A stretch of DNA of 37,851 nucleotides from a bacterium (lineage in GTDB: Bacteria > Patescibacteriota > CPR2 > UBA1875 > JAJYID01). This document shows positions 32,180 through 37,851 of this stretch, one piece after another. Position numbers and translations under genes: made by a program. Every line of letters starts with the position of its first letter. Position 1 is the stretch's first letter. Location: the NCBI GenBank assembly GCA_030647205.1, contig JAUSJO010000002.1, positions 75,261 through 113,111 of the forward strand, in the 5' to 3' direction. Below the pieces are notes generated by a model, which had not been told where the DNA came from, ran no database searches, and saw only the letters and a program-made list of their open reading frames with translations.

Positions 32180-32251
32180 GATTCTTAATAAAAAGACCCC
32201 CACAAGGGTCTTTTTTGATATAATATGTTTCTAAATAAGAGGAGAGATAAA

Positions 32252-32500
32252 ATGGCAGATAAAAGAGAAGAATTTAAGGTTTCCGGAAAAGATATAAAGA
32301 AAAAGGTTGAAGAGCTTGTAAAGGAAGGCAATGTCCGGAGGATTATTATAAAAGATGAAAAAGGTAAAACCATCATGGAGTTCCCTGTTACGGTTGGCGT
32401 GATAGGCGTAATCTTAGCCCCGATGCTAGCCGCGGTAGGCGCAGTTGCAACCCTTGCGGCAAACTGGACAATAGTCGTTGAGAGGAAAAAAATCAAATAG
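32252..32500 (+). CDS. DUF4342-like protein
   Basis: EEFKVSGKDIKKKVEELVKEGNVRRIIIKDEKGKTIMEFPVTVGVIGVILAPMLAAVGAVATLAANWTIVVE. Confidence 0.75.
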   Translation: MADKREEFKVSGKDIKKKVEELVKEGNVRRIIIKDEKGKTIMEFPVTVGVIGVILAPMLAAVGAVATLAANWTIVVERKKIK

Positions 32501-32968: not shown

Positions 32969-33450
32969 AAGTAGCGGTTTTTAGTGATGTGCATGATAAT
33001 CTATTGCGTTGGCGAGAAGCGGCGGAGATTATTCGTGCTGAAAAAATAAAGGTTGGCTTTTGTTGTGGGGATATCGGTGACCTGCAGACTGTGGAAGAAG
33101 TCGCTAAATCCTTTGAAACTCTATATTTGGCGCTTGGAAATCTTGATTTTAAGATTAAAAATATGACAGGTCTCTTTCCTGAAAATGTGATTTTTGCCCG
33201 AGATTATGGTGAGATTGAGCTCAAAAAAGTGAAGATTGCCTATGTTCATAGCAAACACATTGCGAAACAACTGGCCGAGTCGGGTAAATATGACATAGTT
33301 TTTTATGGTCATACCCATACTCCATGGGAGGAAAAGGTTGGCAGCACAGTGCTCTTAAACCCCGGTGAGGTCGCCGGGCACTTCGGAAAAGCCTCTTTTG
33401 CTATATATGACCTAAGAAAAATGAAGGCGGAGCTCAAGCTCTTGACATGA
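32965..33450 (+). CDS. YfcE/MJ0936-family metallophosphoesterase
   Basis: MKVAVFSDVHDN, CGDIGD, LGNLD, FYGHTHTPWEEKVGSTVLLNPGEV; ATGA overlap with the GNAT gene. Confidence 0.92.
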   Translation: MKVAVFSDVHDNLLRWREAAEIIRAEKIKVGFCCGDIGDLQTVEEVAKSFETLYLALGNLDFKIKNMTGLFPENVIFARDYGEIELKKVKIAYVHSKHIAKQLAESGKYDIVFYGHTHTPWEEKVGSTVLLNPGEVAGHFGKASFAIYDLRKMKAELKLLT

Positions 33451-33480
33451 TCTCAGAAACAACATAAAAAATATTGACAA
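33409..33480 (+). repeat. 72-bp direct repeat, copy 1 (3' end of metallophosphoesterase gene plus -35 box)
   Basis: ~60/72 matches by eye to 34122-34193. Confidence 0.85.
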
Positions 33481-33671: not shown

Positions 33672-34034
33672 TTGAGTATTCATCGTAACAGCACCGGAGG
33701 AGTCATTGAAGATGTGAATGGCCACGATATCAGTCAGGGGGAGCTTTTTACGGTCGAGAGTGGAAAGACCTACTGCACGGCTTGTCGTTCGCTCCCTTCA
33801 CATATCAGTGATAGGTCCTACGATAGCTCTGGCGACTCTGCTTTGGGCATCGACCCTATTATGACTCTGGTTATGCTGGATCTGATTCTTGACGACTCAC
33901 AGCCAGATATCTCGGACATTGATAATGATCCGAGTCCAGACAACAATGGCACGGATGGCTGTGATAGCGGCAACTTCGACGATGGTTCCAGCGACTTCGG
34001 TAGTGACTGTGGTGACAGCGGATCCGGTGACTGA
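33672..34034 (+). CDS. hypothetical small protein with CxxC and low-complexity Asp/Ser/Gly-rich acidic tail (TTG start)
   Basis: gggaggtg RBS; YCTACRS...; tail DDSQPDISDIDNDPSPDNNGTDGCDSGNFDDGSSDFGSDCGDSGSGD. Confidence 0.6.
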   Translation: MSIHRNSTGGVIEDVNGHDISQGELFTVESGKTYCTACRSLPSHISDRSYDSSGDSALGIDPIMTLVMLDLILDDSQPDISDIDNDPSPDNNGTDGCDSGNFDDGSSDFGSDCGDSGSGD

Positions 34035-34121: not shown

Positions 34122-34193
34122 GACTTAGCAAAAATGAAGGCAGAGCTTAAGCTCTTAATATAATCTCAAAAATAGCATAAAAAGTATTGACAA
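34122..34193 (+). repeat. 72-bp direct repeat, copy 2 (remnant ...AKMKAELKLLI* plus -35 box)
   Basis: matches 33409-33480; C-terminal coding end conserved. Confidence 0.85.
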
Positions 34194-34215
34194 ATTATCT
34201 TTTGTTTAGTATAAT
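34187..34215 (+). promoter_or_regulatory. consensus promoter TTGACA-17-TATAAT for the TelA operon
   Basis: perfect -35 and -10 with 17-bp spacing. Confidence 0.85.
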
Positions 34216-34264
34216 ATCTGATGGTCAAATTTTTTATGGCCAATCAACTGTAATAACTTAATAG

Positions 34265-34374
34265 ACTGATGACCCGAGGGATCCGGAGGGAGTGGATCAT
34301 CAGTTTATTATTAACTAATAAACTGCCTTTGCTCAAGGCACAAGAGCCTCACTGTGAGGAATAAGTATTATTCC
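34265..34374 (+). ncRNA. structured 5' leader: train of at least five hairpins upstream of the TelA operon
   Basis: ACTGATGA/TCATCAGT, CAGTTTATT/AATAAACTG, GCCTT/AAGGC, CCTCA/TGAGG, GGAATAA/TTATTCC. Confidence 0.6.
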
Positions 34375-34447
34375 AAAAGCAGCGGCCTTTGAAAAATATA
34401 TAGATACAGGAAAAATCCAAACACCAAACGAAGAGGAGGAGAAGAAA

Positions 34448-34987
34448 GTGAAATTGATTCTGTTAGTGGTGGTTTTATTGCTGGTTGTGGGGGTGACAAT
34501 AGTCATCCTTAGAGCACGAAGCAAGAAGGAAACGACCGTAGGTGAAGTGCCTCGGCCGGTAGCTGAAAAAAAGACAGAGGATTTGTCGGAGAAGATAAGC
34601 GGCCAGATTTCCAATCTGACTGACTTACTGCTCAAAATGAAGATCAAGAAGGTTGACCAGGAAGTCTGCGATATGGTTTCGGACATCGTAAGGAAACTTA
34701 TGATTGTCTTGCCGAAAGCGGCTTCCGGATACCCAGGGTCAGAAATGAGCTGGGTTACGGGGAGAGTGGCCGATGGCTATATCCCCGAGCTTGTCAATCC
34801 GTACGTCGATCTATCGCAGAGCGGACGGAGCGAAAAGAAGGAGGCCCTGGTAGGGACCCTCAAAGACATCGACGGGAAGCTGTCAGAAATAGGCAGCTCC
34901 CTTGATACTGGGGACGCCCTCAAGTTCGAAAGTCAAGTTGCATACCTGAAGAAAATGTTGTCAACGGCATCAATCGAAGCCATATAA
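34448..34987 (+). CDS. membrane-anchored hypothetical protein (179 aa, GTG start)
   Basis: gaggagga RBS; single N-terminal TM LILLVVVLLLVVGVTIVIL then soluble helical region. Confidence 0.65.
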   Translation: MKLILLVVVLLLVVGVTIVILRARSKKETTVGEVPRPVAEKKTEDLSEKISGQISNLTDLLLKMKIKKVDQEVCDMVSDIVRKLMIVLPKAASGYPGSEMSWVTGRVADGYIPELVNPYVDLSQSGRSEKKEALVGTLKDIDGKLSEIGSSLDTGDALKFESQVAYLKKMLSTASIEAI

Positions 34988-35003
34988 CCAGGAGGTTACC
35001 AAA

Positions 35004-36245
35004 ATGACCGAAGTAACAGCAGATACTCAGACAAGTACCGCTCTCGCAGTACCGCCCCTCGCAACCCAGGCCATGAATGTTTCGGCAGTGAAGGAAGTCC
35101 AGAAGCCGATGGGACAAACGATTGTTCCCGAGGTTCCGGATGGCATGACGCCCGAAATGGCGGCATCCCTGAAGGAACAGTCGGCCCAGTGGGTAGCGCA
35201 GATAATGGCGATGCCCGGAGATCAGGATCTTCTCGAGAAGGTAGCAACCCTCGGTATCGAGGCACAGCAGTCGGCCGGCCAGAGCATAGAGCTCTTAAAG
35301 GCCCCGATCAACAGCATCATCAATCCCCCGAAGCTTGGGGACCAGGAAGCCCCGGACTCTCTTATGGGTCTGAGGAAAATGGCAGATCGGCTTGATCCGG
35401 CGAAGATTGCCGAGCCTACCTTTTTCGAAAGGTTGATGGGCATATTCCCGCCGTTTGCACGCAAACAGCTGGAGCGGTCTATCACCCGAATCCAGGAGCA
35501 GACCAACTCGGCTGATGATGAGATCAACAGCATCCTCTACAGTTTGAGGAGTGCCGCTGAGACCATTATGAAGAGTAACACTGAGATCGACATAATCGTG
35601 AAAGATCTCAAGCCGAGTCTCGAGCGCGTCAAGGGCACCGGATATCTCTGCGAAGAGATGATGGCCTCCCTGGGACAGGAGTATGAGAAGCTGGCCGATG
35701 ATGATCCGAAGAAGGGGCAGCTGATTAACTTCAGTACCTATCTGTCGTCCAGATATCTCGACTTCAATAGTATGCGGGAGCTGTATAATCAGCTGCTGAT
35801 CGGCCTTTCGACGGCTAGGCAGAACAATGTTGTTCGTGCCATCAGTCTGAGAAGGACGATTGATGTAGCTGGTCCGGCGCTCCGCATCGGTACCGCCCTC
35901 CAGATCATTAACATGCAGCAGGAGCAGGCGGCCGCAATGGATCGGGCGACCCGTGACTTTGTTGCGGATCTTACAGTCCGTAACGCTGAGGCAGTTAGCG
36001 AAGGCCAGAGGAAGGCGATGCAAGACCTCTCCTCTGCTGCCCTCAACATCGAAAAGATGAAAGTGGCACATAACACGTTGATCCAGGCAATGGACGAGCG
36101 CGATCAGCTGCAGCTGCAGGTGATCCAGGTCGCAAGGGACAACGCGGTGGCCTTTAAGGCAATGGCTGAGGAACTGGAAGCAAGGCAGAACGCCGTAAAG
36201 CTTCCGGAGAAAGCAGCCTTAAACTCGATCGAAGCGAAGATCTGA
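35004..36245 (+). CDS. TelA-family (toxic anion resistance) protein
   Basis: long helical protein, IDIIVKDLKPSLERVKGTGYLCEEM...SISLRRTIDVAGPALRIGTALQII-type region and C-terminal helices match the TelA pattern. Confidence 0.8.
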   Translation: MTEVTADTQTSTALAVPPLATQAMNVSAVKEVQKPMGQTIVPEVPDGMTPEMAASLKEQSAQWVAQIMAMPGDQDLLEKVATLGIEAQQSAGQSIELLKAPINSIINPPKLGDQEAPDSLMGLRKMADRLDPAKIAEPTFFERLMGIFPPFARKQLERSITRIQEQTNSADDEINSILYSLRSAAETIMKSNTEIDIIVKDLKPSLERVKGTGYLCEEMMASLGQEYEKLADDDPKKGQLINFSTYLSSRYLDFNSMRELYNQLLIGLSTARQNNVVRAISLRRTIDVAGPALRIGTALQIINMQQEQAAAMDRATRDFVADLTVRNAEAVSEGQRKAMQDLSSAALNIEKMKVAHNTLIQAMDERDQLQLQVIQVARDNAVAFKAMAEELEARQNAVKLPEKAALNSIEAKI

Positions 36246-36246
36246 A

Positions 36247-36834
36247 ATGGAAACAGTAATCGATCCTGCAGTTGTGAAACGGTTTGAGGCCGTTTCGGCG
36301 CTGCCTCCACTTCTTCCCGAAGACCAGCGGCGAAACCACTCTATAACGGATGTTCGTCCCGGCGGTTGCATAACCGTCGGCGCGACTCCCTACAGGGTGT
36401 TGGAGCGCTACTGGTATACGGAAGACAGCTACGTTTGGTACGAGGTTCAGCTCTATAATCTCGCGACCGGCGAAATCACTTACCTCGAATGGGAGATAGA
36501 TGATGAGCTGGAAGTGTTCATAGAGAGCGAACGTCTGTCCAACCTCGCAGATGCGAACCTGACTCCGTCAAAACTGACGGAGATGGACGACGAAGAAACC
36601 GGTACAGTTACCTACAACGGTAACACCTACTCATACGATGACAGTGGCATAGCCACTTTCTATCGCAAAGAAGGTGATCCCGGGCAGGAGGTAAAGTACT
36701 GGGATCTTGTCGGACCCTCAGGAATGCTCATGGGTGTAGAGAAGTGGGATGACGGATATACGATTTCAATATCGATTCCCGTAAATCCCCTCTCCATCCA
36801 AGTCCTACTCGTAGGAGGAACTAATGCAAACTAG
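36247..36834 (+). CDS. DUF4178-like protein
   Basis: RPGGCITVGATPYRVLERYWYTEDSYVWYEVQLYNLATGEITYLEWEIDDELEVF...YWDLVGPSGMLMGVEKW. Confidence 0.65.
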   Translation: METVIDPAVVKRFEAVSALPPLLPEDQRRNHSITDVRPGGCITVGATPYRVLERYWYTEDSYVWYEVQLYNLATGEITYLEWEIDDELEVFIESERLSNLADANLTPSKLTEMDDEETGTVTYNGNTYSYDDSGIATFYRKEGDPGQEVKYWDLVGPSGMLMGVEKWDDGYTISISIPVNPLSIQVLLVGGTNAN

Positions 36835-37441
36835 CGAACTGTCCTATAAGGATCAGTCCGCCAGTGACCTTCGTTTGGGCGTAGTCGGTGGTGACATCGA
36901 CTGCGCCCAGTTTCAAATTGTTGGGCAAGAGACTTTTGAGGCAGACTCCGGTTTGCTAGTTGATGCCAAGATCATTGGTGCAAGCCATGTTCTGGCGTTT
37001 AACTATGCCGGTATCGCCGTTAATGAGGTCTTAGCCTGCATGGAAATACAGGAGACAGACAGAGCCTTTGGGGGACTCATGAAAGATTTAGAGGGTCCCA
37101 TTGAGCTTGAGTTCCAAGGAGGAGAAGACAAGTTGATGTACAAGTTTGTTTATCATCTTGTTGATACTCGGCTACATGCCGGGGATCTTTTTTCTTTCAA
37201 GGATGAGATAGTCTCCGGGCGAAGGCGCGGGTTGATCTTCGAGTTTCCGGATAAAAACCGCGAGAAAATAACAGCAATGACTCTCATTGCCGTTGACTGC
37301 CATGAAGGTATGGACGGAGTCAGTATTGAGACCGGACATATTTATCCGCAGGAATTTCTAGCGGTAATCACCCGGACAGTAATAAGACCATCAATCAGGA
37401 GGGAAAACAGATGCTTAAGCAGCGCTTGCTCCAAAAAGTAA
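36824..37441 (+). CDS. DUF2617-like protein
   Basis: SASDLRLGV...AKIIGASHVLAF...YKFVYHLVD...GLIFEFPDKNREKITAMTLIAVDCHEGMDGVSIETGHIYPQEFLAVITRTVI; overlaps previous gene by 11 bp, RBS ggaggaact. Confidence 0.55.
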   Translation: MQTSELSYKDQSASDLRLGVVGGDIDCAQFQIVGQETFEADSGLLVDAKIIGASHVLAFNYAGIAVNEVLACMEIQETDRAFGGLMKDLEGPIELEFQGGEDKLMYKFVYHLVDTRLHAGDLFSFKDEIVSGRRRGLIFEFPDKNREKITAMTLIAVDCHEGMDGVSIETGHIYPQEFLAVITRTVIRPSIRRENRCLSSACSKK

Positions 37442-37851
37442 TAGCGTTATCACTGCTGGTCGTCTTCTCTCTTCTCGCTGCCGGCTGTTCTAACATCCCA
37501 AAGGAAATCCAGAAGGATGCGGATCAGCTGTCTAAGAGGATTGAGGCAGCAAAGAAGAAGATCGGCGACAAGCAGTCCCAGTTCGAGGAGTTTAAAAACT
37601 CCGAGAGCTACGGCTTTCACAAGCCTTACTCCGAGAGGGAAAACTGGGCTGGTAAATTCGATGAGGCGAGAGCAAAGACAGACACCGCTCAAAGCCTATT
37701 CGATAACGAGCTCAAGCCCATACTCGATCGCGGCAAAGCGGAAGAAGCAGAAAATGCCAAAGCACAAATCAATCGCATCAATGCTACTCTCGACGAAGCC
37801 GACTACTTCGCTGACTATCCTGGCAACAGAGCTGAGTTTCTGAAGAAGGTA
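37411..37851 (+). CDS. lipoprotein, truncated by window end
   Basis: MLKQRLLQKVIALSLLVVFSLLAAGCSNIPKEIQKDADQLSKRIEAAKKKIG: lipobox LAAGC; RBS aggaggg; not in the track because it has no stop within the window. Confidence 0.75.
   Translation, partial: MLKQRLLQKVIALSLLVVFSLLAAGCSNIPKEIQKDADQLSKRIEAAKKKIGDKQSQFEEFKNSESYGFHKPYSERENWAGKFDEARAKTDTAQSLFDNELKPILDRGKAEEAENAKAQINRINATLDEADYFADYPGNRAEFLKKV

Follow-up and report, generated by a model that had tools for sequence, protein, structure and literature searches.

What a TelA family protein does among DUF4178, DUF2617 and lipoprotein genes is the question raised by the right-hand end of the window, that is, the whole stretch of 37,851 nucleotides analysed here (bases 75261-113111 of contig C4, 428,588 bases). 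The host is a patescibacterium with a genome of 1.018 Mb (completeness 98.6%, contamination 0.17%). The contig was followed past the right edge of the window in a continuing locus, L002.

Composition and extent of the gene unit

The initial annotation described five tightly packed genes, and all five were found on the + strand, placed and packed as it had said. According to the ORF coordinates, a gap of 16 bases separates the genes for the TM protein (TMp) and TelA, a gap of 1 base separates those for TelA and the DUF4178 protein, and overlaps of 11 and 31 bases join the DUF4178 to the DUF2617 gene and the DUF2617 to the lipoprotein gene, respectively. The matches of TelA, DUF4178 and DUF2617 to their Pfam families all exceeded the curated cut-offs, which confirmed the three family assignments, and the calls of a TM protein and a lipoprotein were borne out by an N-terminal TM segment and the lipobox LLAAGC. 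The forecast that DUF350 and SpeE-like genes would follow beyond position 37851 proved correct, since both are present in L002 (Table 1).

Table 1. Features of the gene unit and of its borders (plain coordinates refer to the window)
Feature	Position	Strand	Remarks
Phosphoesterase 3' end and following bases, left direct-repeat copy	33409..33480 (L002 670-741)	+	
Second phosphoesterase 3'-end copy	34122..34193 (L002 1383-1454)	+	Left border of operon block; 60/72 identical
Promoter-like site TTGACA-17-TATAAT	34187..34215	+	12/12, consensus match only
Leader	34222..34447	+	~230 nt, stable hairpins; between promoter-like site and TMp
TMp	34448..34987	+	179 aa; one N-terminal TM segment
TelA family protein	35004..36245	+	413 aa; PF05816 E=1.4e-23
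DUF4178 protein	36247..36834	+	195 aa, beta-rich; PF13785 E=7.9e-21
DUF2617 protein	36824..37441	+	205 aa; PF10936 E=7.1e-13
Lipoprotein	37411..37851 (window edge), continuing to L002 6213	+	First 147 of 513 aa in window
DUF350 protein	L002 6235-7065		Beyond window, after lipoprotein; E=2.5e-41
TM-SpeE	L002 7113-8849		Beyond window, after DUF350; NF002956 E=2e-173
Terminator-like stem	L002 8871-8900		3' of TM-SpeE; 13 pairs
Further phosphoesterase 3'-end copies	L002 9409-9464, 11150-11201		Outside window

All seven reading frames of the unit are intact. A sigma70-type promoter match ends 232 bases 5' of the TMp gene, and a terminator-like stem follows the last gene; as the promoter and terminator scans report consensus matches, we consider it likely that the seven genes form one transcription unit. 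The leader between the promoter-like site and TMp folds more stably than shuffled copies (z-score -2.46), and no Rfam family was found in it above threshold.

The TelA match spans positions 14-328 of the 332 in profile PF05816 (84 bits, with a cut-off of 30). The protein is predicted to be helical; its AF2 model, built from two sequences, was poor (pLDDT 48), and no viral relatives were found. TMp had no Pfam match and showed weak sequence similarity to the gene at the corresponding place in two Pseudomonadota genomes, G184 and G146; the position itself is conserved, and by position TMp would be the partner of TelA. An identification of TMp as XpaC was rejected because PF10112 was absent among the matches of four TM partners, and a PF10112 search of the host genome gave nothing at E<=0.1.

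The AF2 model of the DUF4178 protein was beta-rich (pLDDT 71). Weak matches in a plausible register linked it to domain I of EF-P/eIF5A (Pfam EFP_N, E=0.097; Foldseek 5wxk_B, E=0.081; eIF5A, E=0.85). A relationship to that domain was not adopted, since hhalign scored barely above shuffled controls, and a polyamine-modified lysine was likewise set aside, no conserved lysine being seen in the aligned DUF4178 proteins; for these two reasons the likeness to EF-P remains a lead. In the DUF2617 protein, His55 and His172 are common to the host and G184. The full-length lipoprotein has homologues in G184, G146, an Alteromonas plasmid and genome G154, and its C-terminus resembles that of the lipoprotein in the PspA-containing unit of G154; no DUF4247 match was found in it. 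The DUF350 protein consists of two repeats with 8 predicted TM segments. The last protein, TM-SpeE (578 aa), combines an N-terminal TM region with a spermidine-synthase-like domain, and a simple hydropathy scan placed six TM segments before the catalytic domain.

TelA units and PspA units

Neighbourhoods of DUF4178 genes from Pseudomonadota, and of DUF4178 and TelA genes from relatives of the host, were compared using profiles built from the window proteins and a few relatives. A DUF350 profile search of the genome contigs yielded one useful locus (L006), and a Pseudomonas locus (L007) proved spurious, with no such operon among its ORFs. Three arrangements were found: units with TelA, units with PspA, and units with neither. 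TelA units occur in the host, in G184 (seven genes in the same order), in G146 (six genes in the same order, DUF2617 missing) and on Alteromonas mediterranea plasmid pAMCP48-600, where the unit, as annotated in the plasmid record, has the same gene set in rearranged form, joined by speD. Since the unit recurs in these three other replicons, the combination of genes is not due to chance. PspA units were present in five genomes (G153, G157, G161, G169 and G154). TelA and PspA occurred together in none of the four TelA and five PspA units of this small sample, and PspA (PF04012) was absent from the whole genomes of the host (G000), G146 and G184.

The two proteins also take the same place in most units. 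TelA lies immediately upstream of DUF4178 in 4/4 TelA units; PspA lies 20-30 bases upstream of DUF4178 in G153, G161 and G169 and is the next gene upstream in G154, and in G157 it is found about 3 kb away, not adjacent. As TelA occupies the PspA slot of related units, this arrangement suggests that TelA can do the job of PspA. A comparison of the two gave no support for homology (hhalign probability 14%, and no significant fold match with Foldseek for the TelA model of low pLDDT), so the parallel rests on position. The SpeE tree places the four TelA-type rows in a single group (support 97/96), which the PspA-type G154 row, a long branch, adjoins with support of 100/99; the DUF350 and DUF4178 trees were too weak to add to this result. 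An insert before the SpeE 'DA' motif is common to the host, G184 and G146 and missing in four other SpeE proteins, in an alignment that left out the Alteromonas protein. Because the TelA units are one SpeE clade, their non-overlap with PspA may go back to one ancestral event rather than many.

Other genomes in the phylum of the host hold some of these genes. In G110 (L063), a SpeE fusion and a DUF350 of half size are the neighbours of a TM-bearing DUF4178-like protein, with neither TelA nor PspA. In G141 (L065) and G013 (L066), TelA lies beside a membrane-protein ORF, without a SpeE module.

The initial annotation pointed out that DUF4178 and DUF2617 proteins co-occur with DUF350 and aminopropyltransferase-like genes. 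This co-occurrence was found here and in the literature, where the kind of unit had already been described in PspA-linked form. The second group of Ravi et al. 2024 (PMC11237479) comprises a CesT/Tir-PspA pair, 7TM-SpeE, YjfL/DUF350, a Ctha_1186 lipoprotein and DUF4178. The host unit likewise has a TM-fused SpeE, an 8TM DUF350, a lipoprotein and DUF4178, but TelA and a one-TM protein replace the CesT/Tir-PspA pair and a DUF2617 protein is added; as the pair is missing, we classified the host unit as a variant of this group, not as a member. The same authors report PspA-less variants with DUF4247, DUF2617, DUF350 and polyamine genes (for example, CCP45394-CCP45395). These resemble the host unit in having DUF2617 before the lipoprotein, in DUF350 and in the missing PspA; in contrast, the host lipoprotein lacks a DUF4247 match, TelA is present, and AdoMet decarboxylase and polyamine oxidase are not part of the host unit. 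The PspA-linked form and the PspA-less DUF2617 variant are therefore known, and what differs is TelA in the described module. The term 'TelA' is absent from the main text of Ravi et al. 2024, and no paper joining toxic anion resistance with DUF350 was found in the open-access literature, to which the search was confined, so the link has possibly been reported.

Insertion site and origin of the unit

Among 384 genomes of the host's phylum (those listed measure 0.5-1.1 Mb), DUF4178 was above the cut-off in one, the host itself. The genes of the unit have a GC content of 0.47-0.55 and a GC3 of 0.50-0.66, compared with 0.38-0.45 and 0.32-0.48 in neighbouring core genes. The interval from the phosphoesterase gene to the UDG gene, within which the unit lies, measures 10.8 kb in the host and 0.1-1.0 kb in G001, G003, G005, G009 and G012, with gene order otherwise shared. 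In G002 and G004, of the same family, other genes fill it over 9-10 kb, which marks the site as a hotspot. On these sequence features, the unit is a horizontally acquired import in the host's phylum. The neighbourhood comparison found the cluster in Pseudomonadota and on the Alteromonas plasmid, not as a conserved system of the host's own lineage.

The borders of the inserted blocks are marked by copies of the phosphoesterase 3' end (Table 1). The junction at this 3' end in the same-genus G001 recurs 10.4 kb downstream in the host (50/52 identities), and a G002-like junction recurs in the copy at L002 9409-9464 (48/56 identities). In the simplest interpretation, the 3' end of the phosphoesterase gene was the point of entry of the blocks, each of which presumably brought a fresh copy of that end; no obvious integrase was seen among the ORFs of the inserted blocks. 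Between the two window copies, a GC-rich block of its own contains a 120-aa ORF (33672-34034), for which no family was found; its product has a pair of Cys residues and a tail rich in Asp, Gly and Ser. At L002 9451-11487, six consecutive ORFs encode small membrane proteins with similar YGFP/YGWP-type motifs; relatives carry related small ORFs in the corresponding position. The inserts of G002 and G004 (L091 2802-11358 and L093 8810-17410) have several genes alike, and the conserved flank encodes a DUF4342 protein (32225-32500; PF14242 E=9.8e-26).

An imported block could be functionless cargo, caught in the hotspot and decaying in its new host. Its uniqueness in the phylum, its foreign composition and the missing SpeD and MetK (see below) would agree with such a fate, but the seven intact frames, the 12/12 promoter match and the strong terminator-like stem speak against decay, and we regard this explanation as quite unlikely.

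Substrate supply and candidate role

The motifs GGGDG, DE..YHE and D..DP do not vary among the seven SpeE proteins that were aligned, and they also align with solved enzymes. The SpeE fusion thus retains the motifs of active aminopropyltransferases, with a putative transfer from decarboxylated AdoMet to an amine. A gene for AdoMet decarboxylase, which the initial annotation had also proposed to look for, has no match anywhere in the host genome (SpeD), and MetK was found neither there nor in G001 and G003. With both missing, the SpeE donor must be imported or different, and the enzyme may be without its usual donor. The import of the module into a 1-Mb genome that lacks PspA, SpeD and MetK suggests that it travels as a package, and raises the question of what the membrane aminopropyltransferase's real substrate is.

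This supply problem bears on ordinary polyamine synthesis, by which the unit would make spermidine for general use and TelA would be incidental. The SpeE domain is intact, as that explanation expects, and speD lies within the Alteromonas unit; however, the host has neither SpeD nor MetK, and in all TelA units the SpeE is membrane-fused and kept with DUF350, the lipoprotein and DUF4178. We rate it as about as unlikely as functionless cargo.

TelA also occurs in Bacillus and Listeria, in the xpaC-yaaN (TelA) operon, where a membrane protein gene likewise lies directly before telA. That operon belongs to the sigmaW regulon, like pspA, and its envelope-stress regulation is the likeness drawn to the host unit as an envelope-stress candidate; in contrast, it has no polyamine or DUF genes, and the host TM protein lacks the XpaC match (PF10112). 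The mechanism of TelA is described as unknown in PMC12791056. Also quite unlikely is a toxic-anion resistance operon, in which TelA and its partners would confer protection from tellurite or comparable oxyanions and the SpeE-like enzyme would be an accessory: the family name and a 2-fold rise in tellurite sensitivity on telA disruption in Listeria, reported in work cited in PMC12791056, are in its favour, but the same mutant is reported there as 4-fold more sensitive to nisin, and the operon partners match PspA units rather than tellurite operons. Tellurite resistance is not our best guess for TelA here.

We conclude that the unit is probably a variant of the PSP-linked aminopropyltransferase module in which TelA and its one-TM partner stand in for PspA and, in the units of Ravi et al., its CesT/Tir-like partner, acting on envelope integrity. 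The earlier label of a candidate envelope-stress system fits the published context by analogy, namely the units of Ravi et al. 2024, the nisin and tellurite sensitivity linked to TelA/YaaN, and the sigmaW regulon. For a family named for tellurite, its occurrence where a known module otherwise has PspA provides a concrete, testable role as an envelope-stress membrane scaffold.

The detailed chemistry is put forward tentatively and with low confidence, and every biochemical step is one that we infer. TMp would anchor TelA under the membrane, where TelA might assemble as a helical scaffold upon membrane perturbation. The DUF4178 protein could act as a cytosolic adaptor linking scaffold and enzyme, and the membrane-fused SpeE would move an aminopropyl-type group onto a membrane-located acceptor. 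Handling of the SpeE product, at the membrane and outside, would fall to DUF350 and the lipoprotein, with DUF2617 as a putative auxiliary enzyme, and the cationic product or the scaffold would lower sensitivity to membrane-active agents. A bolder and rather doubtful proposal would make TelA the general counterpart of PspA in function, as a second family of membrane-guarding scaffold proteins, unrelated to the first, that fits into the same polyamine-linked module; the host SpeE would draw on a donor that is not decarboxylated AdoMet of the cell's own making, possibly one acquired from a neighbouring cell. Among viral proteins, relatives of the SpeE fusion amounted to one partial match (L098).
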